This document shows positions 2,276 to 37,300 of a DNA stretch of 46,337 nt, piece after piece; the stretch's first letter is position 1; every line of letters begins with the position of its first letter. The notes below the pieces were generated by a model. The model saw only the letters and a list, made by a program, of their open reading frames with translations, made no database searches and was not told the origin of the DNA. Origin of the DNA: a virus; the IMG/VR virus record IMGVR_UViG_3300045921_000943, positions 1 to 46,337 of that record. One strand, given 5' to 3'. A program made the position numbers and the translations under genes.

Positions 2276-2550
2276 GTGATTCGCAACCCTCTGCCGCTTC
2301 TGGATTAAAACTCCAAGGACGTGCTTGGAAGGCGGTTGTCAACGGCCAGCGATCCCTCAACGCGACCCGGCAGAGCATCACTCTGACCGGCACGATCAGG
2401 CATGCGGAAGAGTGGAGCACGATTTTTGACGTGATGCACGACCTTGCCGAACACATCGAGCAGCACACCAAGGACATGGAAATCAAGGACAGCTTTCAGA
2501 TCACCCTTTATCCGCCACCCCAGGCGCAAGAGGAAGCGAGGCACTCATGA
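2272..2550 (+). CDS. conserved-looking small protein, unknown function
   Basis: A 92-residue protein that I do not recognise. The middle (IRHAEEWSTIFDVMHDLAEHIEQHTK) is predicted helical and acidic, with histidines, and the C-terminus is flexible. There is no signal peptide or membrane segment. It starts in an ATGA overlap with the replication-like gene and ends in an ATGA overlap with the helicase gene. This tight placement between an initiator-like gene and DnaB suggests a replication accessory role, for example a loader or adaptor, but no motif supports that. Confidence 0.65.
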   Translation: MSDSQPSAASGLKLQGRAWKAVVNGQRSLNATRQSITLTGTIRHAEEWSTIFDVMHDLAEHIEQHTKDMEIKDSFQITLYPPPQAQEEARHS

Positions 2551-3932
2551 ACCGCACAAAAAACTTCCCAACCCAGAAGGTCTCGGTCCAGTTGGAGGGA
2601 CTCCAGCCCATCAGCAGCCCGGATGCTGAGCGGGCCGTGCTGGGCGCCATGCTGTCCGGGCAGCCGGACCCGGTGGATCAGGCCCTGGCGGCCCTGAGCC
2701 CGGAAGACTTCTTTGTCCCGGCCCATGGGGTGATTTTTTCCGCCATCCGGGACATGCGGGAAAAGAGCCAAGCCATCAGCGAGATGACGGTCTTGGCCTA
2801 CCTGGAGGACCGCAAGCTGGCCGATTCCGTGGGGGGTGTGACGGTCCTGCTCGAGTTGGGGGCCGGGGTGTTGGCGGTCTTGACCGCGACCGAGCACATC
2901 CAGCGCGTGAAGCAGAAGGCCCAGCTCCGGCGGCTGGTCACGGCCTGCGCCCAGACGGTCCATGACGCGATGGAGCGCCAGCACGAGCCGGAATCCGTCC
3001 TGGATGGAGCCGAGAAGCGCATCTATGCCGTGACGGAGGCGGCCTCGGTCGCGCGCGGAGACTTCCGACCCCTGCGGGACTATGTGGTGCCTCTGGTGGA
3101 CCAGATCATGGCAGCCAGCCGGCGCGGGACCGCCTACAGCGGCATCCCGACGGGCTATGACGATCTGGATGTCTGCATGGATGGCCTGCACGCCGGCGAG
3201 ATGGTGGTGCTGGCCATGCGGCCCGGGGTGGGGAAAACCGCCCTGATGCTCTCGATGGCCCGCAAGATGGCGGCACGCCGATTCAACGATGATGGGACGA
3301 CCGCCACGCCCGGCTATCGGGTCGGGATTGTCTCGCTGGAAATGCCCGTCACGCAACTGCTGCTGCGCTGGTCCGCCATGGAGACCCGCATCTCGATGCA
3401 GGACATCCGGTCTGGACGCATGAGCGAGCACGGCCTGGGGCTCCTGGATCACGCGATGACCCGCATGAGCGATTGGCCGGTGTGGGTGGACGAGACCTCG
3501 GGCCAGACCATCCGGGAGGTCAAGAGCAAGGCCCGGAAGTTGAAGCGGCAGCACGACATTGAGGTCCTGATGATCGACTACCTCCAGCTGATGGAGGGGG
3601 ACGGGGAAGACCGGGAGCGGCACGCCCAGGTGGCGGCCATGTCCCGCGGGGTGAAGGCACTGGCCAAGGAACTCAAGATTCCGGTCATCGTGCTGGCGCA
3701 ACTCAACCGCAAGGCGGAAGAAGCCAAAGACCCGCGCCCAATGCTGCACCACCTGCGGGAGTCCGGCTCCATCGAGCAGGACGCAGACGCGGTGATCCTG
3801 GGGTGGCGGGACGACCAGGACGTGCGGCACCTACATCTGGCGAAGCAGCGCAACGGCCCCCTGGCCGAGTTCATCGCGGACTGGCACGGGACCTCGACCG
3901 AGATCACGGGCATCCGGAGGGTGGAGCAATGA
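2547..3932 (+). CDS. dnaB: replicative DNA helicase, DnaB family
   Basis: A 461-residue hexameric replicative helicase that unwinds DNA ahead of the replication fork with NTP hydrolysis. The N-terminal primase-interacting domain begins with the typical SPDAERAVLGAML and EDFFVPAHGVIFSAI. The RecA-like domain has Walker A MRPGVGKTA (residues 224-232), Walker B VLMIDYLQLMEG (D344 region), and the LAQLNRKAE and HLRESGSIEQDADAVI motifs. The family signature near the C-terminus is LAKQRNGPLAEF. Length is normal for DnaB. The Walker A has PGVGK where bacterial enzymes usually have PSMGK. Start and stop are both ATGA overlaps with neighbours, so it belongs to the replication operon. Confidence 0.95.
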   Translation: MNRTKNFPTQKVSVQLEGLQPISSPDAERAVLGAMLSGQPDPVDQALAALSPEDFFVPAHGVIFSAIRDMREKSQAISEMTVLAYLEDRKLADSVGGVTVLLELGAGVLAVLTATEHIQRVKQKAQLRRLVTACAQTVHDAMERQHEPESVLDGAEKRIYAVTEAASVARGDFRPLRDYVVPLVDQIMAASRRGTAYSGIPTGYDDLDVCMDGLHAGEMVVLAMRPGVGKTALMLSMARKMAARRFNDDGTTATPGYRVGIVSLEMPVTQLLLRWSAMETRISMQDIRSGRMSEHGLGLLDHAMTRMSDWPVWVDETSGQTIREVKSKARKLKRQHDIEVLMIDYLQLMEGDGEDRERHAQVAAMSRGVKALAKELKIPVIVLAQLNRKAEEAKDPRPMLHHLRESGSIEQDADAVILGWRDDQDVRHLHLAKQRNGPLAEFIADWHGTSTEITGIRRVEQ

Positions 3933-5761: not shown

Positions 5762-5829
5762 AATAGGCGCCCTCCCCGACACCCTGTCAAGGCTATTCTG
5801 TTGACAAAACCCCCAACCATCTACAAATA
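5762..5829. promoter_or_regulatory. back-to-back divergent promoters
   Basis: Two perfect TTGACA boxes lie back to back: minus strand at 5790-5785 and plus strand at 5801-5806, ten bases apart. The plus one has the phage-type extension TTGACAAAACC and a TACAAA/CAAATA-like -10 at 5822-5829. The terS ATG at 5838 is 37 nt from the -35, implying a leader of only a few bases. The minus one has CCTATT at 5767-5762 and would read toward the 5583-4774 genes. Boxes are seen directly; activity is inferred. Confidence 0.6.
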
Positions 5830-5837
5830 AAGAAGAT

Positions 5838-6368
5838 ATGAAGGCAGGTGAACAACCGCCCCAATCCGCAAAAAGGAAGGTGCCCCGAACGGTCCTCACG
5901 CAGAAAAAACGCGCCAATGCCGAGGGATGGCGTCCGGCCTTCCTGGAAGCATTCAAGGAGTGCCCGAACGTGACCCTGGCGTGCGAGAAGGCGGGCGTGA
6001 GCCGGACCACGTTCTACGACAACCTGCGGGCCGATGAGGAGTTCAAGGCCGAGTTTGACGCGATGGCAGAGAGTGCGGCCGACGAGCTGGAGCAGGAAGC
6101 CCGGAGGCGGGCCCTGAAGGGCTGGGACGAGCCGGTATTTGGCCGGGTGGACCGGGACCAAGACGGCCAGATCGGGACCATGCGGCGATTCAGCGACACG
6201 CTCCTGATCTTCCTGCTCAAGGGGCGGCGCCGGGCGGTCTTTGGGAACCAACCCGAGACCCAAGTGAACATCCAGAACAACGTGCAGGTCAACAACACCT
6301 ACGAAACGAGGGACCAATGGCGGGACCGACTGGCCAAGCGCCTGAACCACGATCCATCGACGACCTGA
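5838..6368 (+). CDS. terS: terminase small subunit
   Basis: A 176-residue DNA-recognition subunit of the packaging motor. The N-terminal helix-turn-helix is clear (FLEAFKECPNVTLACEKAGVSRTTFYDNLRADEEF, residues ~33-70). The typical oligomerisation segment follows (ADELEQEARRRALKGWDEPVF and RFSDTLLIFLLKGRRRAVFG). This arrangement is characteristic of HTH-type small terminases, which bind the pac or cos region. It starts 37 nt after the TTGACA box with little or no leader, and its 3' end overlaps terL by 52 bp. Confidence 0.88.
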   Translation: MKAGEQPPQSAKRKVPRTVLTQKKRANAEGWRPAFLEAFKECPNVTLACEKAGVSRTTFYDNLRADEEFKAEFDAMAESAADELEQEARRRALKGWDEPVFGRVDRDQDGQIGTMRRFSDTLLIFLLKGRRRAVFGNQPETQVNIQNNVQVNNTYETRDQWRDRLAKRLNHDPSTT

Positions 6369-8239
6369 CCGAGGAGGAGTTGCGGGATGCGTATCAGGTC
6401 CGGATGGACCCGGAGGCATGGTTCGTGTCCTGCGGTCACATCAAGGACGAGGAGACCCGGGAGGTCTTTTGCCCCGAGACCGCGAACGTGCTCCAGCGCC
6501 GGGCCTTCGCGGCCTACCGGGCATGCATGGACCAGAACCGGCCGGCCCGCATCATCATCTTGAAACCCCGTGGCCGCGGGGGCTCCTCGACCGCGGGCGC
6601 CATCGCGTATCACCATGGGCGGAACTACCGGGCGCGGGTGGGGGTCATCGGGAACCTGGACGACAGCTCCCAGAACGCCCTCGACATCCTGCGGATCATG
6701 ACGGACCACGATCCGTTCCCGCACTGGCAGAGCACCAAGACCAAGGACGTGGAGGGAGTGGTGCAGTTCTCGCACGACACGATCTTCGAGACCTACACGG
6801 CCGAAAGCCCGGACTCGGCCCGCTCGGCGCGTTTGCAGGCTTACTGGGCGACGGAGGTCGGGAGATGGCAGAACGGCGGGGCTCTGGATGCCATGGAGAC
6901 GCTGGAATCCATGCGCGGCGCACTGCCCAAGAAGGGCATTCACCTGTGCGTGGAGGAATCGACCCCCCAGGGGGCCTCGGGGGCATTCTACAGCACGTGC
7001 CAGAAAGCCCGATGGCCGCGCGCGTCCGAGTGCCCGGGCGGTAGGGAATGGTGGCGGCCCTACGAGACTGACAAGCCCCAGCGCATCGACTTGGATGCGG
7101 GAGACAGCCAGTTCATCTTCATCTTTGCGGCCTGGTTTGAGTTCCAGGCATCAGCCAAGCGCAACCTGACGGACGCGGAGCGGAACCACATCAAGAGCAC
7201 ACTGGACGACGAGGAGCAGCGCCTGATCGACCGCTTTGGGAACGATGGGCCAAAGGGCCAGCGGCTGGGCTGGGAGGTGGATGACGCGGACGTGTGGGAG
7301 CAGCTCGCGTGGCGCCGGGCCATGATCGCCTCCGAGTTCAATGGATCGGCCAACAAGTTCCTCCAAGAGCATGCCAGTGACCCGGCCACATGCTTCCTGG
7401 CCTCGGGCTCCCCAGTCTTCGACCTGGATGGCCTGACCCGCCTGGAGCTGATGGCCCGGCAGCGCCTGCCCCTGTTTGTCGGGACCTTGGACCTGCATCC
7501 CAGTATGGGGGTCACGCGTCGGCCCGACCCGGGCGGATGGTGCCAGGTCTGGGAGGAACCGCGGGAGGGCATGCGTTACCTTGTTGCGGCGGACCCAGCC
7601 TCGGGCAAGAGCCAGACCGAATCCTCAGGCGCGGACGCACACTCGTTTCTGGTGGTGCGGGACACGTTCTTCGACCTCGCGAAGGTCCAGCACTCGCCGG
7701 CGGTCGTGGCCCGCATCACCCCGCCCTGCCAGGTCAACCCGGAAGCCTACGGGGCCATGCTGGAGGCCCTCTCGTGGTATTACGGCCGCTGCATGGTGGT
7801 GCCGGAGATGAACAACACGGGCGGGGGCGCCCTGATCGAGCAGTTGCGGAAGCGCGGGGTCCCGTTCTACATCCGCCAGAAGGTGGACTACGCCAAGCAG
7901 GGCAAGATCACGGCCTTCGAGGGCTGGCAGACAGACGAGCGAACCCGCCGGCTGATCATCAGCGAGCTGGCCTGGGCCATCCTGAACCACGAGATTGATG
8001 TCTGGTGCCCGCACGTGGTCTCGGAACTGAAAACCTTTGTCCGGAAGGAGAACGGGCGGGAGGAACACGCGGACGGGTGCCACGACGACGACGTCCTGGC
8101 GCTGGCGATTGGGCTGCACTGCCTGGATAGCGCGACCGTTTACGAGGCCCGGAACGCCCAGCAGCAACCCAGCATGCCGGATGACCGCTACATGAGGGCG
8201 GCCTTGCAGGGGGCACCGCGGGATGGCGGGACGTGGTAG
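6317..8239 (+). CDS. terL: terminase large subunit
   Basis: A 640-residue packaging ATPase and nuclease. The N-terminal ATPase domain has a P-loop-like segment IILKPRGRGGSST (residues ~80-91), a Walker-B-like region after ARLQAYWATEVGRW, and the ESTPQGASGAFY segment typical of terminases. The RNase H-like nuclease domain has three acidic sites: D426 in LVAADPASGKS, E497 in VPEMNN, and D590-D592 in HDDDVLALAIG. These place it firmly among phage TerL proteins. It cuts concatemeric DNA and drives it into the prohead through the portal, whose gene unusually lies 30 kb downstream. Start is in an overlap with terS, preceded by GAGGGA. Confidence 0.93.
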   Translation: MAGPTGQAPEPRSIDDLTEEELRDAYQVRMDPEAWFVSCGHIKDEETREVFCPETANVLQRRAFAAYRACMDQNRPARIIILKPRGRGGSSTAGAIAYHHGRNYRARVGVIGNLDDSSQNALDILRIMTDHDPFPHWQSTKTKDVEGVVQFSHDTIFETYTAESPDSARSARLQAYWATEVGRWQNGGALDAMETLESMRGALPKKGIHLCVEESTPQGASGAFYSTCQKARWPRASECPGGREWWRPYETDKPQRIDLDAGDSQFIFIFAAWFEFQASAKRNLTDAERNHIKSTLDDEEQRLIDRFGNDGPKGQRLGWEVDDADVWEQLAWRRAMIASEFNGSANKFLQEHASDPATCFLASGSPVFDLDGLTRLELMARQRLPLFVGTLDLHPSMGVTRRPDPGGWCQVWEEPREGMRYLVAADPASGKSQTESSGADAHSFLVVRDTFFDLAKVQHSPAVVARITPPCQVNPEAYGAMLEALSWYYGRCMVVPEMNNTGGGALIEQLRKRGVPFYIRQKVDYAKQGKITAFEGWQTDERTRRLIISELAWAILNHEIDVWCPHVVSELKTFVRKENGREEHADGCHDDDVLALAIGLHCLDSATVYEARNAQQQPSMPDDRYMRAALQGAPRDGGTW

Positions 8240-8242
8240 CTG

Positions 8243-8271
8243 TTGACAAAACCGTCATCCCGACGTAGCGT
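8243..8271 (+). promoter_or_regulatory. phage-type promoter of the noncoding region
   Basis: TTGACA at 8243-8248 (context CTGTTGACAAAACC), 17-bp spacer, TAGCGT at 8266-8271. It starts just behind the terL stop. Transcription would begin near 8278 and run into a region with no credible ORF, so its product is expected to be RNA. GACG-TAG-CGTC (8262-8272) forms a small palindrome over the -10. Confidence 0.65.
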
Positions 8272-8277
8272 CACGAC

Positions 8278-8770
8278 AGGTCTTTGAAAGTCTGGGTGTT
8301 CAGCGGAGTGGGGTGCGGCGTGGACCGGAAATGCGCCGAAGCGAAAGCAGACACGCACAACACGGCGAATTGGATCGGGCGGAGTAGGTATGGCGAAGCT
8401 TGGTAGGCATGCACGACCGAAGACGTCCACCAGTGAGGCAACACACAAAACTGCCACGATTCGCAAAGCCAGAGCGTGGGTAGCGCCACGACACTCCACC
8501 CCGCTGGACACCGAAAGATGACTCAGTGGAGCGGCGCGTGGACAGCCAACACGCCCTGAACGAAAGCGTATGAGCCGAGTGTTCTAGGAACCAACCCACC
8601 TAGCGGTGAATAACAGCGCCTTGACCTAGCCGGACTAAATCCCGGCCCGCTCCCCTGAGTCATTTTGAAGGCATTGCCCCCATAAAAAGGGGCGGAGGAG
8701 TAGGGGAATCCACCCAGAGCAGGCGCATCCTGCGCGGTCCCTGAAGGCATCGTAAGTCCTCCGCCCCACC
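8278..8770 (+). ncRNA. candidate large structured noncoding RNA
   Basis: About 490 nt between promoter and tRNA-like element, with only spurious short ORFs. Nested and neighbouring helices are visible. 8301-8315 pairs with 8492-8506 (15 bp, one mismatch, one G-U). Inside it, 8320-8325 pairs with 8425-8430; inside that, 8334-8338 pairs with 8363-8367 around GCGAAAGC (GNRA loop, 8341-8348). Others: 8475-8479/8486-8490, 8584-8588/8599-8603, 8629-8633/8642-8646 and 8723-8727/8731-8735. A long helix 8689-8699/8757-8767 is 11 bp perfect, with an alternative 8676-8680/8689-8693. Size, phage context and adjacency to a tRNA recall GOLLD and ROOL RNAs; I cannot say whether it belongs to either. Confidence 0.55.
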
Positions 8771-8778
8771 TTTTCCTC

Positions 8779-8850
8779 TGTAGGGAGAGACGGTCTCAAG
8801 CGATCCTCATAAGGTCGCCTCCGTTGGTTCGACTCCAACCCCTGCAACCA
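8779..8850 (+). tRNA. tRNA-Met(CAT)-like, compact D arm
   Basis: Acceptor TGTAGGG (8779-8785) pairs with CCCTGCA (8840-8846) with one G-U. The anticodon arm is CGATC-CTCATAA-GGTCG (8801-8817), with T33 and anticodon CAT at 8808-8810. Variable loop is five bases. T arm is GTTGG-TTCGACT-CCAAC (8823-8839), perfect. Discriminator A is followed by an encoded CCA (8848-8850). The D arm is unusually short: GAGA-CGG-TCTC or GAG-ACGGT-CTC in 8787-8797, giving a 69-nt body. CAT could serve Met or, with lysidine, Ile. It may be a working phage tRNA or a tRNA-like part of the surrounding RNA. Confidence 0.6.
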
Positions 8851-8863
8851 CTTTTCCCCTCTC

Positions 8864-9001
8864 TGGGTGCAACCCAACGGTCCGCCTCGCAAACGAACTG
8901 GGAGCAGGGGATCGAACTTGCGCCTCCGCCTCGCATTGTAAGGCGGCCGGGCCAGCGGTGCCCGCAGAGAGGCAGGACGCAAAGTCTGAAGCTTGCCTCT
9001 C
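8864..9001 (+). other. tandem hairpins downstream of the tRNA
   Basis: Five hairpins follow in 140 nt. TGGGT-GCA-ACCCA (8864-8876); GCAGG/CTTGC (8904-8908/8917-8921, one G-U); CCGCCT/AGGCGG (8926-8931/8941-8946); CGGGC/GCCCG (8948-8952/8960-8964); and a 10-bp stem 8967-8976/8992-9001 with one G-U. No credible ORF covers this stretch. The structured transcript begun at 8278 may therefore continue through the tRNA to here. On the minus strand part of it looks like a broken tRNA, which I reject elsewhere. Confidence 0.45.
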
Positions 9002-9049
9002 GTATTCATGCATCATCTCCGATGCGGAACCCCCAAAGGGAATCGTCGC

Positions 9050-9085
9050 GGCTCCCAAGCCGTCCCTGCGTGGGTTCTTCTTTTT
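9050..9085 (+). terminator. weak intrinsic terminator candidate
   Basis: Short stems GGCT/AGCC (9050-9061) or CCCA/TGGG (9054-9057 with 9071-9074) are followed by the T-rich run TTCTTCTTTTT at 9075-9085. The stem is short, so confidence is low. If real, it would end an ~800-nt noncoding transcript from the 8243 promoter, right at the 3' end of the converging minus-strand genes. Confidence 0.35.
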
Positions 9086-9372
9086 CACCCCACCGAGCAC
9101 GAGGGCCCGGGCCCCATCTCCCACTGGAGTTCCATCATGCCGCTTTCCGGGTTCGGGGCCATCCGGGGAGCGGTCACGAGCAGGAGAAGTTCCCCGTGCC
9201 ACCAGTAGCGGGCGCAGTTCTGGCGATCCACGGTCTGGCTCAGCCCGCGGCCAATCTCTTCCCAGGTCGGGACGCGGCCCAGGCGGATTTCCAGCCGGCC
9301 AACCAACTCCAGATCAATCCGCTGGAGCATCTCCAGGCGGGCTTGGTGCGTGATGGATTCGAGTTTGGTCAT
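9085..9372 (-). CDS. unknown protein
   Basis: A 95-residue protein starting at 9372, where ATGA overlaps the upstream gene's stop; the longer upstream frame is a shadow. The N-terminus is helical (LESITHQARLEMLQRIDLELVGRLEIRLG). A segment PTWEEIGRGLSQTVDRQNCARYWW resembles a compact helix-turn-helix, as in sigma or AraC-type DNA readers (TWEEIGRGLSQT). It could be a small DNA-binding regulator, but the fit is weak. Second gene of a two-gene minus-strand unit. Confidence 0.5.
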   Translation of the reverse strand: MTKLESITHQARLEMLQRIDLELVGRLEIRLGRVPTWEEIGRGLSQTVDRQNCARYWWHGELLLLVTAPRMAPNPESGMMELQWEMGPGPSCSVG

Positions 9373-9845
9373 TTTTTCGGGGCCAGCTTGTCGGCCAGGA
9401 TGCGGAGGTGCTCCACGGTAATGCACCGACCGGCCCGCCACCAGATTTTGTTTCCCGCGATGGTGTAGGCCACGGGCTGGCGCTCCACGGATGCCTTGCG
9501 GGTCTGGAGGTATTCGAGCTGCTGGGCGATGGTGCGGGGCTGGAGCGTCCCGGCATCCGTAAGGAAAAACACCTGCTCGGCGATGTCTGCCGACATGGCC
9601 CCGTAGCGGAGGGGCACAATGTGGTAGCCCTCGCGGTAGTTCGCATGGAGGAACACGACCTCGTGATCCTTTTTCAGGAAAGCCTCCTGCCGGGTGCGCA
9701 GCCGGCGCTTGGATCGCTCCCGTGAGGCGTTGCGTCGATACCAGTCGGCCTTGCGGGCGGCTTCGGCCTTGGGGTCCAGGTCGGGTTTGGCCCGGCGGTA
9801 ACGGGTGCGATGGTAGGCGGCGGCCTTGTGGTCTTTAAGTGGCAT
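9369..9845 (-). CDS. unknown basic protein
   Basis: A 158-residue protein. The first ~55 residues are very basic and Tyr/Arg/Lys-rich (YHRTRYRRAKP, KADWYRRNASRERSKRRLR), like the nucleic-acid-binding leader of many phage HNH-type proteins. No HNH motif follows. The rest (TIAQQLEYLQTRKASVERQPVAY, KIWWRAGRCITVEHLRIL) may form a DNA- or RNA-binding domain. First gene of the minus-strand pair, facing away from the scaffold and capsid genes, with promoter candidates at 9953-9925 and 9906-9877 (minus). Function unknown. Confidence 0.55.
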   Translation of the reverse strand: MPLKDHKAAAYHRTRYRRAKPDLDPKAEAARKADWYRRNASRERSKRRLRTRQEAFLKKDHEVVFLHANYREGYHIVPLRYGAMSADIAEQVFFLTDAGTLQPRTIAQQLEYLQTRKASVERQPVAYTIAGNKIWWRAGRCITVEHLRILADKLAPKK

Positions 9846-10057: not shown

Positions 10058-10063
10058 TTGCCC

Positions 10064-11216: not shown

Positions 11217-12707
11217 ATGGCAGTTCAAGACATCAATGCACAGACGCTGGCGCAAGCCGCCGCCATGTCGCCCGACATCCAGGAGAAATTCTGGTCGCGC
11301 GACCTGGAAATCCAGGCCGCCAGCGAAGACCACTTCGCGGCCTTTGAAGGCCCCGAGGGTTCCAACAAACCCATCGCGCTCAAGCAGGAACTGTCCGCCG
11401 GCCGCGGCCAGGAAGTGACCTTCACCACGGTCAACCCCCTGCGCAACAAAGCCCGTGTGGGCGACCAGAAGCTGGAAGGGAACGAGGAAGCCCTCCGGCA
11501 CGGTCAATACAAGTGCTATGTGGATGTGGTTCGCCACGCCGCTGGCCTCAAGATGACCGTCGAGGAGTTCACCGCCATCGGCGGCAAGCTCGACAACACC
11601 GCCCGCCAGCTCCTGGCCAAGTGGTTCGGTCAGCGCAAGCAGACCGCCATGCTGATCCGCCTCCTCCGCGCGGCCGAAGCCTCCGGACGCAACATCGTCC
11701 GGCCCGGCAACGCCACCACGGATGAAGGGCTGACCCTCAGCGACACCCTCAGCACCACCGCCCTGGAGACCGCGAAAGCCGTCGCCAAGACCAACGGTGC
11801 CCGCCCGGGTGAAATCGGCTATGCCGAGTCTGGCGCCCCGATCCACCGCTTCATGGCGTTCGGAACGGACTACGCCTTCGCCTCCCTCGAATCCTCGCCC
11901 TCCTACAAGCAGGCGGTGCGTGAATCCGATGTCCGGGGCAAGCAGAACCGCCAGTTCCTCGGCGGCCTGGTCAACTGGGCCGGTGACGCGCTCTACAACT
12001 TCAGCCCCGTCGATTCCGTCGGGACCCCGGTCGGCTGCCCGCTCCTGCCCAAGGCCTACCTCGGGACCGCGATCGCGGCCGGCACCACCGGCAACCTCGC
12101 GATCACCGGCGGCGGCAGCGCCACCGATGGTGACGACCTGAACGTGGACTACTACGAGTCGTTCCCGAACTTCGACTACCTGTTCTACCAGAACCAGACC
12201 CCCACGGTGTTCAGCACCCCGTTCTTCGTGGTCATCTACAACCTGACCGGCGCGGATGCGGGCAAGTGGGGCTTCTACCGCGTCCTGGCGAACAACGGGA
12301 ACCGTCTCACGACCGTGGACGACAACGGCAACGGCACCACCGGGGCCGGCGCGCGCCTGGCTGCTGCGGTCAGTGGCAAGGCCAGCACCAAGATCGGGAA
12401 CGTGACCTGGGATTCGGCTCGGAACACCGATGCCCACCCCCCGGGCTCGCTGGTCTTCCTGGCCAACAGCTACGCCGTCCCGCTCGGCTCCACCCTCTAC
12501 CTCGGCGCCATGGCGGGCGTCCGGGCCTACGGCAGCATCCGCAACAAGCGGTTTGCCGACGGCCAGGACTACGGCATGGTCCGCGGCGTGGGTGCCATGA
12601 GCATCTTCGGCGAGGCCGCCGTCAAACGCTCGGACAACGTGTGCCCCAACTTCCTGGTGATCCGCCACGCGGTGGCGTATCCCGGAGTTGACCTCAACCT
12701 GTCCTGA
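11217..12707 (+). CDS. major capsid protein, N4 gp56-like (DUF4043 type)
   Basis: A 496-residue shell protein. The N-terminal region (ALKQELSAGRGQEVTFTTVNPLRNKARVGD then LEGNEEALRHGQYKCYVDVVRHAAGL) matches N4 gp56-family capsid proteins: a Gly-Gln/Asp-Val-Thr-Phe strand, G-D-x-x-LEGNEE, and a central helix (LLAKWFGQRKQTAMLIRLL). The middle has an Asp- and Gly-rich insertion (~270-310). The C-terminus (GSIRNKRFADGQDYGMVRGVGAMSIFGEAAVKR) matches the end of the same family. GGAG lies 8 bases upstream of the ATG. It follows the scaffold and ends in front of a promoter with a strong hairpin. Confidence 0.85.
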   Translation: MAVQDINAQTLAQAAAMSPDIQEKFWSRDLEIQAASEDHFAAFEGPEGSNKPIALKQELSAGRGQEVTFTTVNPLRNKARVGDQKLEGNEEALRHGQYKCYVDVVRHAAGLKMTVEEFTAIGGKLDNTARQLLAKWFGQRKQTAMLIRLLRAAEASGRNIVRPGNATTDEGLTLSDTLSTTALETAKAVAKTNGARPGEIGYAESGAPIHRFMAFGTDYAFASLESSPSYKQAVRESDVRGKQNRQFLGGLVNWAGDALYNFSPVDSVGTPVGCPLLPKAYLGTAIAAGTTGNLAITGGGSATDGDDLNVDYYESFPNFDYLFYQNQTPTVFSTPFFVVIYNLTGADAGKWGFYRVLANNGNRLTTVDDNGNGTTGAGARLAAAVSGKASTKIGNVTWDSARNTDAHPPGSLVFLANSYAVPLGSTLYLGAMAGVRAYGSIRNKRFADGQDYGMVRGVGAMSIFGEAAVKRSDNVCPNFLVIRHAVAYPGVDLNLS

Positions 12708-12713
12708 GTCCTG

Positions 12714-12790
12714 TTGACAAAACCCTGAAAGGAGGGGTAGGGTAGCGCGAGCGCCCTGCCCCTCTCCATCAGGGGTTTGGAACCCTGAAA
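12714..12790 (+). promoter_or_regulatory. phage-type promoter with overlapping hairpin and direct repeat
   Basis: TTGACA at 12714-12719 and TAGGGT at 12738-12743 (18-bp spacer). GGGGTAGGG (12734-12742) pairs with CCCTGCCCC (12754-12762), so a 9-bp stem covers the -10. CCCCT/AGGGG (12759-12763/12771-12775) is an alternative stem. AACCCTGAAA occurs twice, at 12721-12730 and 12781-12790. This may set capsid versus downstream expression, as a partial terminator for read-through and a fresh promoter. Leader to the ATG at 12806 is about 55 nt and contains AAGGAA. Confidence 0.45.
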
Positions 12791-12805
12791 AACCAAGGAA
12801 CCCAC

Positions 12806-25364: not shown

Positions 25365-28300
25365 ATGGCCACTACTCCTCGCCGCCGCTACCGCACTCCC
25401 GCCGATCCGTTCGCCGCCCCGTTCCGGGGTTTTGGCGCCCTCCAGTCTGATCTGGATGAACAGCGCCGCCAGCAGGAGGAAGAAGCCGCCCGTGAGGCGG
25501 CCCGGCAGGCCAAGGAGCAGGAAGCCCAGCGCCGCGCCCAAGAAGCTGCCGCCAAAGAGCAAGCCCGCCAGGAATCCAGCCGCGCGGCCGCCGAATCCCG
25601 CCTCCTCAAGGCCCAAGGCGTCCAGACCGATCTCCAGCCCGAGACCCTCCCAGATGGCCGCACTCTGGTGCGGGCCGTCCCGCGCAAGGATGAGCAGGGG
25701 AATGTGCTCTACCCTGAGCGCCCCCTAAAACCCTCCGAGTTCGGGACCGTCCAGCGGGATGGCGTGACCTACCGCGGGCGCCAAGACCGCTACGGCCGCC
25801 ACGTGTTCGAGGTGGACGAGAAGGCCCAACATGCCGCCCTGTCCCGCCAGCAGGACGCCGACTTCGACCTCCAGGACGCCCAGACCGCCCAAGAGATCGC
25901 CAGCCTCCGGGGCCAGTCCGATGCCGCCCGCCGGCGCCTGCGTGAACTGGAAGACGCCGCCAAGGCGGAACTGGATGTCACGGGCATCAATCCCGATGAC
26001 GAGCCCGCCTACCAGAAAGCCCAGCAGGAGCACACCGCCCGCGTGGCCCAGGCCAAGAAGGACGCGGCCGAGGCTCGCCGCCGTGCCGCCGAACTGGAGG
26101 ACCAGATCAACGCCCGCGAGACCGCCGCCGCCGGACTCCGGGTCCAGCGCGCCCAAGTCCGCCGCCAGAGCCTCACCGGCCCCGCCGCGCCCGCGCAAGA
26201 CCGCACCGCCCTCAACCAGAAGGCCCAGGACCTCGCGGGCCGCCGCCAAGCCCTCCAGGAACGCGCCGCCGCGGTCCAGGAGACCCTCGCGCGCCTCGAC
26301 ACCTCGGACCCCGACCAGCTCGCCACCTACCAGACCTGGCAGGACCAGCTTGACCAAGAAGCTGCCGCTCTGGATGCCGAGGACGCCACCTTGGCTGACG
26401 AGATGGAGAACTGGACCGGCCAGACTTCCGCCGCCACCGCCTCCGGGCGCGTGCTCACGCCCGAGATTGAAGACCCCGCAGCCCCGGTCCCGATTCCCCC
26501 GCGCCTCGCGCCCGAGACGGCCGCTCTGAACCGGGATGTGGAGCAGTTCAACGCCACCGCCCAACAGATCGAGGAAGCCCGGCAGGCCGGCCAGGAAGTC
26601 CCGCCCGAGCAACTCCAGGCCCTCCAGAGCCAGCAAAAGACCCTCGCGGCCCGCACGGACGCACTCAAGAGCCGCGCCCGCGGGATGCAGGCAGGCGGGA
26701 CCCTCCTGATCCCCGGACCCGATGGCCAGCCCGTCCCGATGGTTTCCCCAGCCCTTGCTGACGCGATGGGGATCAATCAGCAACCCGATCCCGAGACCCC
26801 GGAAGACTTCCTTGCCCGTCTGGATGGCGAGCAAGCCCGCGATGCCGCCCTCCTGAGCGCCCCCGAGGGCGCCCCCACCAGTGACCGGGACGCCTCCGCA
26901 CTCCAGGAAGCCGAAAGACTGGAGCAGGAAGCCAACCAGATGCAGCGCCGCGGGGCCGGCTTGTCCGACCGCGGGATGCAGCGCATGGAGGAAAAAGCCA
27001 ACCAACTCCGCGCACAAGCCGCCCGACTCCGGGAAGCCCACGCGGCCAAGCCCGAGCAGGCATTTTTTAAGACGGCCAAGCCGGTTATCAACGGCAATAT
27101 TGACCTCAACAATCGTCCTGTTGTGCAGAATAAAGACGGAACAATCAGCACCGTGCGGAGCATCTCTATTGGCACAGATAAAGGAGAAACTTTAATCCCC
27201 ACCGTCTCTGAAGATGGGCGGGTTCTATCCGACGAGGAAGCGATTCAAAAATTTAAGCTCACAGGGAAGCATTTAGGGGTTTTTAAGACCGAGGAAGATG
27301 CCCAAGCCTATGCGGAGGCGCTACACAAAAGCCAAGCCGCAAAATATGTGAGGCCAATGCAGGGCCCGGACCGCGAGGCCTTTGCCGCCAGCCTCCGGGC
27401 TGGCTTGGAAGACGGGCGGCTGGATGAAGCCACCGCCCACCAGCAGATCGCGGAGGCCGAGCAATCCGGGCGCCTCTCCACCCTCGACCGCGCGGCCCTG
27501 GAACGCAACCTCTTCGGCATCGAGCCCCTGAAAGGCTCCGTCACCTCCACCGCAGAACTCGCGCGCGAGGCCATGCGGCTCAACCTCCCGGACGCGAAGG
27601 AAGACGAGGTCCTGTCCGCCCAACTCGACGCCGCCAGCCAGTGGGTCCAACAAAACAGCCACAAGGCCGGATTCAACCGCCTCGCGGCCTTCGATGCCCT
27701 GGAGGAACTCGCGAGCCAGCGGAACGAGAGCTTTTTGAAAGGCACGGGCCAAGTTTTGGGTAGCATGGCTGGTATGCTGAATGTGGTTGCAAAGGGCAAC
27801 GTGAGCGCCTTTGCCTACACGATTGCTGCCGCCTCGCTGGCCAAGAAGATGGGCCGCCAGGACCTGGCCAACAAGATCGTGAACGAGGGATGGGTCAGCC
27901 TCACCCCGCAGGAAATCGAACTTTTCAACCGCCGCTCCAAAGAAGACATCGAAGGGCTGAAAAACCAGCTCAACCCCTGGAACCAGCCGAACTTTTCCGC
28001 CCTGCGCCGCGATACCGAGGCCCTCAAGCAAGCCGTCCGGAAGGGCGATGACGCGGCCATCGAGTCCCTCGCGGGCCAGATCGCCGAGACCGCATGGAAG
28101 GCCAACGGGTCCCGCGGGGATGTGCAGCAGTTCGACATCCTGCGCGATCCCGACCTTGCGCCCCTTCTGGCCGATTACGCCGCCACCGGGAACCCGGAAT
28201 CCTTTGAGCAACTCCGCGGCATGCTGGCCCAGGCCAAGGACTCCGAGGCCCGCCGCCTCATGGTCGATGTCGCGAACCACCTCCGGGACAAGTCCGCCCG

Positions 28301-31300
28301 CCCGGACAACCCCGTCACGTCCGCCCTCAAGATGGCGCCCGGGCTGGATAGCATCACGACTGGATTTCAGGAGGGATGGGAGGGGATGAAAATTGCAGGG
28401 GTCAAAGAGTTCGCGATTGAGGTAGCGTCCGATGTCATCGGTTTGGCGTTTGGCGGCGTCCTGAAAGGCGCCCGCCTGGCCTCCGTGGGGAACCGCGCCA
28501 CCAAGTGGGGCCGCGCCCTCGGGTCCAGCACCCGGGCCGTCACGCGCATGCAAGGCCGCCTCGCCAGCCTGGAAGAACGCCTCGCGGCCGCCACCACGCT
28601 CCAGACCGGTCCCGGGGCCTCCCGGTTGGCCCGCATGGCCGCCCCCGTCCTGAACAACCCCATGGTCCGCGGTGGCGCCGCCGGGAGCCTCGGGGAGGGG
28701 ATGGAGGAAGCCCTTGGGGCCATCACGGACCAGGGCGGCACCCTGGAAGACGCCGCCGAGGCCTTCACCACCACCGCCGGCCAGATGCTCCTCGTGGGCG
28801 GACTCTCGCCCGTCTCGCTCGCGGCCGTGGGGGCCGATCAGTATGTCCGGGTCCAGGAAGCCGTCGCGGACCGCGCGTTCGTGAAGCAGAACCGGGACCT
28901 TTTCCCCCAGGCTGCCGACGAGGCCGCCGCCCTTAAGCTCTGGCAGAGGGCCAAGGACATCGCTCCGCAAGTGGCTGCCGCCCGGATGATCAAGGAGATG
29001 GCCGGCCAGTCCAGCGAGATCGTCCGGCTCCAGAAAGAACTGGAGACCGAGACCCGCGGGCCCGAGCGCCGCGGACTCCAGCAGCAGATTGAGGTCCTGA
29101 AAGCCCGTCAGCAGGCCGCCGGCGGGATCGCGCACGCGATGATTGAGCAAGCCATCCGGCAAGACCGCGCCCTGGAGGCCATCCAAGACTTTTACATCCA
29201 CAAACGCGCCCGCGCGCTCGTGAAAGCCGGGAATGGCCGCCTCCTGACCGCCAGTGAGGAAGCGCTGGTCCTGAACGCTCCGGATGGCCAAGCCACCCCG
29301 GATGCCCGCATCCAAGATGGCCACTACATCATTTCCGACGAGGCCCGCCAGTTCCTCCAGAGCCTAGACCCCGAACTCGTGACCTTCATCCCGAGCGAGC
29401 AGGCGCAACTCGAGAGCGTCGAGGCCGCCAAGGTCCAGAAAACCCGCGCGCCGCGCCAGCCCAAGAAGTCCCGTGCCGCCAAGGCTAGCCCGACTGCGGC
29501 TAGCCAAGAACCGGCCAGCCCGCCGGCCACAACCTCTTCGCCGGACGCCCAGCCGGGCGCCCCAGTCCCCTCGTCGGAGCCTGCCCCGCAGGATGCCCCG
29601 GCCCGTCTGGCGACCGATTCACCCACCACCACCCCGCCCACCAATGAGCAAGACCTACAAGGACAGCCCGCAGGCCAAGAAGCGCCCCGGCCCGCAGCGC
29701 AAGGGACCGGACAAGCCGTGGTTCCGCAAGAATCAGCACCACAAGCACCTCAGGCGCCCCCAACTCCTGCCGGAACTGTCAAGGAATCCTTGACACCTGC
29801 TCCCGAGCCTTCCGCCCCCAACCAAGGACCAGGGACCAAGGACCAAGGACGCTTCCGCTTCACCCTCCAGAACCAACGCGGGACCGGCCAGACCACCCGC
29901 GAGATTAACGCGCCATCCGCTGATGCGATCCGGATTGCCCTGATTGGACGCGGGGTCCGGGAGCAGGACATCCTCAGGATTGAACCCATTTCCAGCCCGA
30001 CCCCTGATGGCCAACCACTTACCCCGGAGGCCCCCGATGTCGTTTCCGACTCCATTTCCACATCCGGACAGCCCGTTCCTGACCGCCCAGCACCTGCGGA
30101 AGCTCCGGAAGTCCGCCCGGCAGGCCAGCAAGCCGCCCCTGCACCTGCCCCCGCTCCCGCGGCCAACCCGCTTGTCGCCCAGGCCCTCGAAGCCCTGAGG
30201 CCCTTCCGGGCCGTCTTGGGCGAGCCCATCGTGACCCGCCAGGTCTATTTTGGCACCGGCCGCATCCTGACGGCCGAAGAGTTCGATGCCCTCCCGGATG
30301 CCGAAAAAGCCACCTTCCAGGTTTTCCCCAACGGGGGCATCCCGGTCACGAGTGATGGCCGGGTGTTCATCGCCACCGATTCCCTGATCCCGAACCTCCA
30401 GTCCTTGCCCGAAGCCGAGCGCCCGGCCCTCCTGTCCCGCATCATCGACGAGGAGTTCAAGCACATCGCGATCTTCCGCGCCACCACCCCGCAGGAGCGT
30501 GTGGCCCTCTGGGAATCCCTCCCGGGTGGCATCAAGGAACGGGTCATCACCAGCTACTTCACCGCCGCGGTCGCGGCCGCCGGCGGGGACTGGAGGGCCG
30601 TCCAGGTCCCGGCGGACAATGCTGCCAACGAGTTCCTCCGGATGCTCCTCCAGGCCCGCGAGGGCGGGGCCACCTCCGAGCAGATCGGGATCGCACGCGA
30701 GGTCGATGCCTACGCCCGCCAGAACCCCGGCTTTGCCCGCCAGTTGGCCGAAATCCTCCAGAAGATGGCGGACTGGCTCCGGAACGAGGTCCCGCGACTC
30801 CTGGGGCAATCCCCGGAGGCCCGCCAGCGGGTTGAGACTGCCGTCCAGCGCATCGAGGCCGAACTCGCCCGCATGAATGCCGCCCTCCACCCGGACCTCC
30901 ACACCGTGGATGGCGTCACGTTCCCGTCCCGCTTCATCCCCGCGGCCGACATCGCCACGATCACGAAGCGGGACCAAGCCCGCCCCGAGGACCCCGCCGT
31001 GGTGGCGGACTACCGCCGCCGCATCGAGGCCGGGGAGGACGTGGGGCCCGTCACGGTCTTCCGCACCGCCGTGGGGGACATCGTGCAGGATGGCAACCAC
31101 CGTTTCCTGGCCTACCAGCAGGCCGGGCGCGAAAAAATCCCCGTCCGGTTGGTTGACGCCGAGGGGGCCCGCCCCGTAGAAATCACAGAGGATGGCCAGA
31201 TCGGGAACATCAAGCTCTTCGAGTTCGAGACCTTTGCCGACCTCCCCACCATTGGAGCCTACCATGAAAACCGAAGGAAAAGTGAACCCGAACGCCAAGG

Positions 31301-34300
31301 GCAAGTCCCGGATGGTCCGGATAACGCCGTCGATGCGGAAACTGATCGACCGCAAGAAAGCCGAGATGCCGCCCGGCCCGAGCCCCGACCCCTGGATCAG
31401 CCGCCCGCATCCGGACGAGCCGAGGCGGTAGCGCCGTCGCTGAATCTTACCGGAGCGCAGGCAAACATCCCGACGCTCGGCACCACAGCAACCCAAATCT
31501 GGGAGGCATGGAAATCCGCATCCAAAAACCCCTTCCCCGGGCAAGTTGTGGTGGCGGATTCTGGTGTAGGGGACTATCAATGGTCTGGGGATACGATGGA
31601 GCGTGTCTTCATGAGCCGCGCAAACAGCATGACCACTGTGCGGGAGGCCACCCCGAAAGAGCGACAGTTGGTCTGGGATGCCATGATGCGCGGCCAACTG
31701 CAAATCGAACGCCGCTACATCACGGGAACGGGAGAATGGACGGGAGTGAACCGCGGGCAAACCGCCCAAGTGTTGCATCAAGCGACGGCTGAGCCACTTC
31801 CCGAATTTCTGGAAACCGAAGAAGGGAAAATTTGGGCCGAGCGGGTCAACTATCGGAAGCCTGATGCTCCCAAGGACCAAGGACCAGGGACCAAGGACGC
31901 CGCGCCCGGCGCGGCCGTGACCATCAACGGCAAGCCCGCCGTGGTGGTGAAGCCCGTCATGGGCATGATCCGGGTCCGGTTCCAGGACGGGAAGGAAAAG
32001 AACGTCCCGCCCCAGGACATCCAGCCCGCCCCCGATTCTCCCGACATCCCGCCGCTCGCCGGGGCCAAGCCGGCGCCGGCTCCGTTGCAGGGGGTCGAGC
32101 ACCCTCAGTGGCGGGCCAAGTTAAGGTCTCTGGATGAAGGAAAACTGGAGTCCAATCAGCCCATCTATCTCGGGAACGTCAACCGATTGTGGTCTGCCAT
32201 GGGAGCCCAGCCTGGATTGATGTTTGCCGTCTCGCCGCAAATCCTCAAAAAAGTGCGCGATAAGCACGGGATCCCGTTGTCCCGTCTTGAATCGCTCCAC
32301 GCTTTACTGTCCAGCCCTGTGGCCGTTTTCGCCAATCCTTCCACAAATCCCCAAGCCACGGCCACGCACCTGGCGCTTCTCGACATGGCGGATGGTCAGG
32401 GACTTCCAGTGGCGGCGCTCGTTCAGGTGGACCGCCCTTCCGGCAACATCCGGGTCCATGACCTCAACAGCCTCTATGGGCTGGACCGAAGCGCCGGACG
32501 GGTCGAAGAATGGTTTGGGCGCAACCTCGCGCGCTACTTGGACGCCGACAACAGAAAACCCGGCGCGTTGAACGACTCCTTACTGCGCCAGTTGCAGGCA
32601 GAGTCAACGAACCGGGCTTCTGACAAGACCCTACTCCGGCCCTTCGATTTTGTCAACCCGGACACCCCCGTGGTGCTCCAGACCGACCGCGCGACCCTCA
32701 CGGGGCCCGGCATCCAGATCGTGGGGCCGAAAGCCTTCCACGGCACCCCGCACCGCGTGGACCGCTTCACCACCGACAAGATCGGGACTGGCGAGGGCGC
32801 GCAGGTCTATGGCTGGGGACTCTACTTTGCCGAGAATCCCGAGGTGGCCCGCCAGTATCGGGAAAACCTCTCCTACAAGGACATCGCCCAGCGGTTCCTC
32901 AAAGTCATTCCCCAGGACGCAGACGCCACAGAGGCCATGGGAATGATCGGCACCGGCGCCCTCACGCCCGCGCAAGAGCGCGTGCTTCGCGCCTTGGAGG
33001 CAGAGGATTGGCTGGGCTTCGATTACCCAGCCCAAGCCATCACGGCCGCCTACCGGGACCTCGACAACTTCGATCCCTCAGAAGAACTCCGGGCCGCCGT
33101 GCTGGCCAGCGGCAACCTCTACACCGTCAATCTCAAGGTCCAAGACGATGAGTTGCTGGATTGGGACAAGCCCCTGAGCGAGCAGAGCGAGAAGGTCAAG
33201 GCCGCGATCCAGAAGATGGGCAGCCGTTTCGCCGAAGCAGCCAGCAGAGTGGCTGCGGGCGAGCGTGCGCGCGATGTTGCGATGGATTACGGAATGAATG
33301 CTTTGGACCTCATGGCCAACAATGGAGGCGGGCTTTACAACCAAATTGCCCGGGAGGCAGGAGGAGAAGCCAAGGCGTCTGAGCTCTTTGCACGATCTGG
33401 CATCTCCGGGCTCCGCTACCTTGACGGCGGAAGTCGAGGCAAGGGTGAGGGCACCCGCAACTACGTCATCTTCGACGAGTCCAAGATTGAGATTCTGGAA
33501 GAGAACGGCCAGCCGCGCCGCCCTTCCGAGTTCATGGCCGCCTCCAAACCCGCCCCCGCGAGCCCGGACCAGATCGCGCAGCGCCAGCGGGCCGCGGGAC
33601 TCACGGTCCAGGGCCTTGTGCAGGACAACCTCGGGCTGGCCTATCGGCTGGCGGACCAATACCAGAACATCGGGGGCGCGTTCGCGGAAGAATCTCCCGG
33701 GATCGGCCCCAACCAAGTGGGGCGCGGGGAAAACGACATCCGGGCCGAAGCCCGCCGCGGGCTCCTCCAAGCCGCCCGCACCTATGACCCCACCCAAGGC
33801 GCCCGGTTCAGCACCTGGGCCTGGCAGGTCATCAGCAACCGCCTCAACAGCCTCTATGGCACCGCCGTCAAGCAGCGCGCGGAAGAAGCCACCCTGGATC
33901 AGGACAACATCGATGAAGAGGGGACCCTGCGGGAATCCGCCAAGGAGCAGATTCCTGACCCCGCCGCGCCCGACATCCCGGGCACGCTGGCCCGTCAGGA
34001 GACCTCCACCGCCCTGCGCCGCGCCATCGCGTCCATCGAGGCCCCGCGGGTCCGGACGGCCCTGGAGGGCGTGCTGGCCGGCAAGACCTACGAGCAGATC
34101 GGCCAGGACCTCGGGGGCATCACCCGCCAGGGCGTCGAGAAGATGATCTCTGTCTCGCTGGGCCGCCTCAAGACCGCCCTCGCGCGCCAAGGCATCAAAG
34201 GCATTGACGGGCAGGGCATGGTCGTGGGAAATAAGCCCGTGCCTGAACCAGATCGGGCCGCCCAACCGCAGGACAGCGCATCACTCCCCGGGGCGGATTT

Positions 34301-37300
34301 GAGTGAGCAGGACGCCCGCTATCTGGAACTTGCAAAAGACCCTGAGACAAACAAGGAAGAGTTGCAGCGCATGGTGGATGAGGCCGCGAAGGCGGCGGGG
34401 ATGTTGGAATACTTCCGTGCTGGAACCGCTGATGAAATTGGGGTTAAAGCGTGGGCATTGTTTACGCCTGACGAATCCACGGCGGCAGAATACACGGACA
34501 ATCCCGGCTTTGGCGGAGATGTCTTGCGAAAAGTTTTTGTCAAACCAAGCCGAGTATTAAATGCTGACGTGCGCAGCAGGGCAGGAATGCAGGAGATGGC
34601 GGATGCTATCGCATGGGGGGATCAAGACTGGCTTTCCGATGGTTGGCAATACCCGTGGGAGGAAAGCCGGAAAGTAAAGGACGCGATTGAAGCGGCGGAT
34701 TTTGATGCCGTGCAATACGTTGACGATTTTCCACCCGGAGCCACTACGATTGTTTTCACTGGTAATCTTTCCACATCCCAAGTCAAAACCGCCGACCCCG
34801 TAACCTACGACGACGCCGGAAAAATCGTCCCGCTGTCCCGTCGCTTCGACTCGGGGCTCGACATCCGAGGGAACGTCAACCCTGAATCCACCCGCGCCGG
34901 AGAGGGCGCGGTGGTGGGCAGCAAGCCCGCCCCCCAGGCTCCCCAGATGGACCCCGAGGCGGTCGAGTTCGATTACTCCGGGCTCATCACCAGCACGGAC
35001 GAGTTGACGGCCCTGCGGGACGAACTCACCCCGGACAACTTTTCCGACTGGGAAGACCTCATCACCGATCCCGACCAGCGCGCTGCGGTTGCGGAAAGGG
35101 TAGAGGCACTGGAGAACTTCGACCCCGAGGATTCCGACACCTGGGAAGCCCTCTTGGGCGATGATGCGCCCGGCGCCCTCTACTACAACCTGGAGGACTC
35201 CCTCGCGGAGGCCGAAACCCTCCGGGACAACTTGAAAGACATGGAGGCCAGCAAGCCCACCATCGAGGCCGCCGAGGCCGTCCTGCAAGCCGTGCAGGAC
35301 GAACGGGCCGCCCTCTTGGCCCGCGCTCAAGAGGCCCATCAGGCTGCCGCCGCCACCCTCACCCGCTTGGCCCAGCGCGCGGAAGCCTACATCAAGAGCC
35401 CCATGCGGGAACTGGAGATGTTCGACCCCGAGGATTCCAGCACCTGGCCCGAGCCGGTCTATTCCGCCTACGCGGAGATTCCCGAAGGCTCTTTGACCGA
35501 GGAACAGGATGCCGAGTGGGCCAGCAAAGCCGAAGCCCGCATCCAGGAACTCCAGGCCCAGAGCCCAGCCGCCGCTTCCAAGCCCGCCCCCGAGCCCATC
35601 CCCGAGTGGGAAGCCGCCATCCAGGACGCGATGGACGAGTTGCTCTACGACATGGACAAGATCACCCCGTTGGTCCGCCAAGCCCAGTCCGAGGCCCCCG
35701 GCCAGAAGACCACCGGGGAGCCCCGCCTCGCGGCCCCGGTGGAGTCCGATGACGCCCGCAATGTCTTTCACGGGGTGGACCACTACCGGGAACGCACCCG
35801 CATGATCGAAAACGAGGCCCAGTGGGAAGCCGCCGCCGAGCGCCTCCTGGCCAACGATTACGAGGGCACCAAAGCCGAGATTGTCCGCCGCGGGCTCTCG
35901 GGCGGGACCCTGACCCCGGAGGAAACCAAGGCCGCCCAGATGATCGCGGCCCGGGAAGTGGGAGCCGCCCTCCAGTCCAGTGACCCGGATGCCCTCGCGC
36001 GCGCCCAGCAGCTCGTCTATGCCTACCGGGAAACCGGCACCGAGGCCGCCCGCTCGATGCGGGCCCGTCGCGATCCCTTCAAGACCGTCCAGGAGCGCCA
36101 CCGCGAGTTCCTCGGGAAAATCATCCTCACGCCCCCGCCCGCCACCCGCAAGCGCCTGGACCAGGCCCCGGACGCGGCCGCCAAGGAAAAAATCCTCCGG
36201 GAGGACCAGAAGCGCATCGAGCGCGTCAAGAAGGCCCTGGAGAAAATGGGGGTCACGATGGAGGACCTCTTCAGCGGCGCCGTGGAGGTCCGGCTGAAAT
36301 CCGCCCGCCTGATCCGCCAGCAGATGGCCCCGCTCCGGAAAGAGGAGCAGGACGTGATCAAGGCCGTCCAGCAGGGCCGCAGCCTCGGGACCGCCGCCCG
36401 CCAGGCCAAGATGACCGAGAAGCAAGCCCAAGACGCCTACCAGGCCTTCCGGGACCAGATGAAGGCCAAGCTCATGCAGATGGTGGCGAATGGCGCGACC
36501 GTCGAGACCCTCCTGGCCCAGGAAGCCGTCGCGGAGCAACGCGAGACCCGCCGGGCCGCCGGTTCCCGCCCGGGTGCCGCCGGGGCCAAGATGTCGGCCG
36601 CCCAGCAGGAAGCCGAGGTCGAGCGCCTCCTGAAGGAAATGGGACTCCCGCCGGTTGAGCAGGCCAAGAAAGGCCGCTTCGATCTCACGAACCCCCGCCA
36701 GGTTGTGACCGCCGCCCGCGCGGCCCAGGCGGCCAGCGATTCCAACGCCCTCGATATGGTCTATGAGATCTGGATCAACAACATCCTGTCCGGTCCCCAG
36801 ACCCACTTTGTGAACGTCACAGGCAACCTCGGGAGCGCGGCGTGGGACTTCACCGTCCAGCGCGGGGCCGAGGCCCTGGTGAATCTCGCGACCTTCGGGA
36901 ACGTGCAGGGCGGGGCCCGCCTCGGGGAGTTCCGTTACCTCATGCGCGGCATCCTGCCGGGGCTGGTGCGCGGCTGGCGCCTCGCGGTCCAGTCCTACGC
37001 GGCCGAGGCGGATTTCTTCGAGGCCGAGGTCCTGAATGGCGTGGTCGAGATCGGGGACTTTGACAAGGGCGGGGGAACCCGCTCCTCCATCCCGGGCAAG
37101 CTCGGGCGCGTGATCCGGATTCCGGGCCGCTTCCTGATGTTCCAGGATGCCCTCTTCAAAGGCGCCATCGGCCAGATGGAGGCCGGCGCCCAAGCCTACC
37201 GGATCGCCAAGGCGGAAAAGCTCAAGGGCCCGGCCCTGGAATCCCGCATCGCGGAACTCATGCAGCCCGGCAGCCTCGCGTGGGAACTCGCGGTCGAGAA

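Follow-up and report, generated by a model that had tools for sequence, protein, structure and literature searches.

A promoter-led, non-coding and strongly folding stretch around a tRNA-Met in an uncultivated phage genome, a candidate large structured RNA

We asked what is made from a stretch of phage DNA that begins with a phage-type promoter, folds strongly and encloses a tRNA, all beside the terminase gene. The window, that is, the whole stretch of DNA that was analysed, consists of a single uncultivated virus record, 46,337 bases long, and the candidate stretch (8241-9085) lies in it between the terminase gene and a gene at 10058 that comes ahead of the capsid gene and resembles a scaffold gene solely in its position. 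Gene scans identified a DnaB-like helicase (2547-3932), the terminase large subunit (6317-8239), the major capsid protein (11217-12707) and the portal protein (38596-40752). Two small genes on the minus strand (9085-9441 and 9369-9845) converge on the candidate stretch from the right; both have a clear coding signal by the codon-usage score described below, and the gene scans yielded no family match for either. Elsewhere in the window, one plus-strand open frame (25365-38555) spans 4396 aa and takes up more than a quarter of the contig.

The initial reading of this locus, made from the letters alone (referred to here as the sequence-only reading), held that the stretch is led by a promoter. 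Indeed, we found at 8241-8254 an exact copy of the TGTTGACAAAACCG element that is repeated in this genome, with 11 copies in the window at up to three mismatches, compared to 2.25 expected by chance. The predicted promoter (8241-8271, plus strand) consists of this element, with its -35 box TTGACA at 8243, followed after a 17-nt spacer by the -10 box TAGCGT, which is a weak match; the predicted transcription start is near 8278. Other copies of TGTTGACAAAACCG are located just upstream of genes at 5838, 10058, 12806, 24493, 38596 and 41282, and among these close copies only that at 8241 has no protein gene immediately downstream. We also note that the phage-specific element TGTTGACAAAACC occurs at 5799, 8241, 10027, 12712, 24477, 38560 and 41214, with a well-conserved -35 part and variable -10 parts. 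Since several of these copies are very near a start codon, they likely give rise to leaderless or very short-leader mRNAs.

To score coding, we used codon usage trained on eleven genes of the window, expressed as log2 odds per codon for pieces of 240 nt. All six frames scored below zero between about 8280 and 9080; the best of them over 8280-9079 reached only about -0.26 to -0.45, whereas the flanking genes mostly scored +0.1 to +0.6. Thus, the claim that the stretch holds no credible protein stands, and we found no coding signal for a protein ORF across it in the window's own sequence.

The stretch also folds better than its shuffled controls, which was the comparison proposed along with the sequence-only reading. 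The segment 8275-8780 (506 bases) folds at -204.8 kcal/mol, whereas 100 dinucleotide-shuffled versions averaged -178 (sd 6.7) and none was as good (z -4.0); for 8275-9085 (811 bases), z was -4.5. Moreover, among about 240 pieces of 400 nt taken from the two strands along the contig, the plus-strand piece at 8291 ranked first (z -5.2; its minus-strand counterpart had z -2.5). A mostly coding piece at 12401 reached z -5.0, and thus folding energy alone is not proof. That piece (12401-12800; z -5.0 on the plus strand and -3.7 on the minus strand) contains the end of the capsid gene and the leader of the next gene, and its folding probably reflects a hairpin, of a terminator or of a leader, in the vicinity of the 12712 promoter copy. 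We observed a strong excess of A in 8300-8600, and an A excess suits the unpaired regions of structured RNAs. Relative to shuffles, A among unpaired bases was not higher in the second of the domains described next (D2) and only slightly higher in the first (D1).

On the plus strand, the fold contains three closed domains ahead of the tRNA. D1 (8295-8512; z -3.0 to -3.6) has a multi-branched interior, most of it poorly determined in the fold, and is closed by a helix (8295-8315/8492-8512) whose 21-nt arms are 86% complementary and pair as 12 bp, one mismatch and 8 bp (20 bp total); the 15-bp helix originally noticed at 8301-8315/8492-8506 is the core of these arms. D2 (8515-8666; z -5.9 to -6.4) is the most significant domain and was absent from the list of helices in the sequence-only reading. 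It contains four inner hairpins within a closing helix (8515-8534/8647-8666) with 20-nt arms that are 90% complementary and form 19 bp; 0 of 200 shuffles folded as well, and its MFE structure is the same as its centroid. D3 (8689-8767) is a four-way junction with three hairpins, closed by the 11-bp helix 8689-8699/8757-8767, which had been described as perfect and is so; its z ranged from -2.4 to -3.8 with the choice of end points. The helices that close D1 and D3, together with the inner D2 helix, have pair probabilities of about 1 in the full-transcript ensemble, and the outer D2 helix is present in the MFE and centroid structures of both the full-length and the D2-alone folds.

We considered that the stretch might instead be a DNA element, for example a replication origin or a packaging or attachment site, with inverted repeats that act in DNA, based on the finding that D2 and D3 fold well on both strands (z -6.4 and -5.1 for D2; z -3.8 and -3.4 for D3), as long inverted repeats would. 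However, D1 and D2 taken together favour the plus strand (z -5.0 vs -2.4), and a phage-type promoter points into the stretch. Furthermore, the repeat search lists no multi-copy iterons, and no integrase is named among the genes scanned, which are part of the gene set. We therefore regard a DNA element as improbable.

D1 and D2 also resemble each other. About 51 nt can be aligned between them, in the same place in both structures: the 5' arm of the closing helix, then the first hairpin, whose loop of 9 nt has the form GAC...AA, and then GAA.CGAAAGC. The alignment score was reached in 75 of 3000 shuffle pairs (12 of 3000 if the same offset was also required) and by real contig pieces in 2.7 to 4.3% of cases. 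The shared motif, a pattern written post hoc from the alignment, matches the window only at those two places. This similarity in sequence suggests that D1 and D2 arose by module duplication, which, if real, would show one route by which large phage RNAs grow. Pairing the D1 closing helix in a register like that of D2 costs about 11 kcal/mol, which argues against reading compensatory change into the D1 helix. The single viral match to the shared-motif pattern is coding and was discarded as chance.

Downstream of D3, ARAGORN found a tRNA-Met(CAT) at 8779-8850 on the plus strand, with an encoded CCA; the tRNA said to be embedded in the stretch was thus detected, though below the Rfam cut-off (RF00005, 24.3 bits, E 0.0017 for the short stretch, compared to a gathering cut-off of 29). 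Its acceptor, anticodon and T arms and CCA are intact and its D loop has three bases, and we judge it to be a weak but genuine-looking tRNA. Folding the whole transcript does not favour the cloverleaf, since the 3' half of the tRNA is able to pair with 8896-8915. On the minus strand, a tRNA-like stretch at about 8855-8975 carries the T-arm-like AAGTTCGATCCCC; ARAGORN reports it (about 8855-8946) at a relaxed threshold only, and it is possibly a decayed tRNA opposite tRNA-Met. In seven related contigs (L010, L013, L014, L015, L018, L045 and L065), whose capsid or terminase proteins are only 26-33% similar, a tRNA-Met(CAT) is again present close to the terminase or to the portal region, and in the flanks that we fetched, related phages share a tRNA at this place and the large RNA was not seen there.

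If the locus were an ordinary tRNA locus, with one working tRNA-Met, decayed tRNA remnants and spacer, then the large fold would be functionless. The retention of tRNA-Met(CAT) near the terminase or portal in related phages that lack the large RNA fits this explanation, as does the further weak tRNA-like stretch on the minus strand. On the other hand, those same phages have no such stretch beside their tRNA, and neither chance nor decay explains closing helices of 19-20 bp in the neighbouring D1 and D2, or a z of about -6 for D2. We thus consider an ordinary tRNA locus unlikely, if less so than a DNA element.

The 3' end of the stretch had been described as a series of hairpins that ends in a T-rich run. 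A long imperfect stem (9027-9041/9063-9077) does precede TTCTTTTT, but the tail with its hairpins (8851-9085, plus strand) is marginal, with z only -1.9 to -2.3, and a consensus terminator scan called no terminator near 9085. The stem and TTCTTTTT together are a plausible candidate terminator. With these ends, the putative non-coding transcript would extend from 8278 to 9085 on the plus strand, a segment with no coding signal in six frames and a fold z of -4.5.

Few large ornate RNAs have been described from phages, and what they do is still an open question. Rfam searches of 8275-8780 with permissive filters gave no family on either strand up to E = 10, and a search of the whole window at gathering thresholds gave no OLE, tmRNA, group I intron or other family in the core. 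Likewise, the GOLLD model (RF02032) had no match in the window (family search, E up to 10) or in 30 related records, in a search in which the positive controls matched only below the cut-off, and the ROOL model (RF03087) had no match in the window or the 30 related records, in a search run without a positive control. These covariance models thus place the core outside GOLLD and ROOL, neither of which the sequence-only reading had recognised, as well as outside OLE and tmRNA. Apart from the tRNA, the only Rfam match was a minus-strand one to Twister-sister, which we rejected as chance (19.1 bits vs a cut-off of 34), and we also rejected a group I intron, raised by GGACTAAAT in D2, which had no model match.

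GOLLD and ROOL are large RNAs of phages, ranging in length from about 660 to over 800 nt, that lie near tRNAs (PMC12286853). GOLLD, which phages or prophages encode, is commonly longer than 800 nt, sometimes has tRNAs inside it, and in one studied case adjoins a tRNA-Met (PMC12286853). The stretch in the window resembles it in that a tRNA-Met lies within a predicted transcript of about 810 nt, but has no sequence or structure match to RF02032. ROOL is encoded by phages or prophages, often near tRNA islands, and is 659 nt in the example studied (PMC12286853); the likeness is that of a large phage-encoded RNA in a tRNA-linked setting, whereas the window stretch has no match to RF03087. Vibriophage ICP1 makes an orf-less transcript of about 800 nt, which adjoins the lysis cluster, was seen by RNA-seq and was likened by its authors to GOLLD and ROOL (PMC7567579). 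The predicted window transcript is similar to it in length and in being orf-less, a likeness of description; in contrast, the window stretch contains a tRNA and ICP1 has none (PMC7567579), and transcription was seen in ICP1 and is predicted here. In the phage collection, blastn with the window stretch as query found no match. The shared setting, a phage RNA of about 800 nt with a tRNA inside or beside it (PMC12286853), would also be expected of a diverged member of GOLLD, ROOL or another known large RNA beyond the reach of its Rfam model. Set against this are the lack of any core match up to E = 10 and of GOLLD or ROOL by family search (for ROOL, the search without a positive control), and we give a diverged member little credence.

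The sequence-only reading had also looked to BLASTN for related phages from which to build a covariation alignment, and here the outcome was negative, in that no relative of the RNA was found. Blastn detected no homologue of the RNA in GenBank phages or plasmids. Scans for relatives anchored on terminase, capsid and DnaB gave protein relatives, not RNA relatives: the capsid and terminase searches returned about 100 viral contigs at 24-38% identity, the nearest phages having at most 38% capsid identity, and the RNA was found in their fetched flanks neither by blastn nor by nhmmer. A one-sequence covariance model of D2 had no match in 50 whole related records, and blastn on 50 related records gave short matches only, of which the best was coding. 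Patterns of the junctions (23-mer and 17-mer) found nothing in viral and bacterial collections. Records very near the window may be missing from the collections searched. In one contig (L067), a weak nhmmer/blastn match was dropped since it falls within a long open stretch, and the long apparent gaps in three others (L025, L030 and L033) look like minus-strand genes, with a fold z above 0 in L025.

We confirm that 8241-9085 begins with a phage promoter element, carries no coding signal, folds strongly and contains a tRNA. The sequence-only interpretation of these features is partly supported. As to what the stretch is, we favour, with some confidence, the interpretation that a single transcription unit, from 8278 to about 9085, yields a large structural non-coding RNA with a GOLLD- or ROOL-like way of working, because of the promoter copy, the lack of coding signal, the fold z, the plus-strand bias, the tRNA, the absence of an Rfam family in the core, the likeness of D1 to D2 and the setting near a tRNA that GOLLD and ROOL share. 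Counting against such a unit are the lack of any homologue, and hence of covariation, in the searches above, the poorly determined D1 interior, the marginal tail, the weak -10 box, the uncalled terminator, the unfavoured cloverleaf and the z of -5.0 reached by a mostly coding piece. This RNA probably represents a new family of a known kind, outside GOLLD and ROOL and resting on one sequence, and by analogy it probably works as they do. More tentatively, and in our view somewhat short of an even chance, it may form a class of its own, new among the large ornate phage RNAs and with no sequence relationship to GOLLD or ROOL, in which two diverged copies of one junction module (D1 and D2) and a third closed domain lead into tRNA-Met.

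If this RNA unit is real, the phage's own promoter class would drive transcription of 8278 to about 9085 during infection, giving a transcript with three closed domains, then tRNA-Met, then the hairpin tail, with termination near 9085. The RNA would fold without coding for protein and might act as a stable RNA particle or scaffold with a role in infection, while the tRNA might be cut from the same transcript. A further, unrelated RNA that is linked to a tRNA in this way would be a sign that large RNA particles repeatedly arise next to tRNA genes in phages, and it would offer a fresh system for asking why.

In the course of the search for relatives, we noted a multi-branched hairpin directly after a 551-aa gene in two contigs (L002:4128-4272 and L124:3964-4092; also in L043 and L123). 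We had considered the gene in L002 as a terminase, but it has no similarity to the window's terminase and matches no terminase family, and with that identity we dropped the idea that the hairpin is a terminase-linked RNA. The hairpin is compact (about 130-147 nt), with z of -6.8 and -5.0, and in L002 it has no Rfam match; we consider it a candidate for a separate structured phage RNA. Relative to L002, L124 lacks 9 nt from one side of the closing helix and 8 nt from the opposite side, and the helix still pairs.
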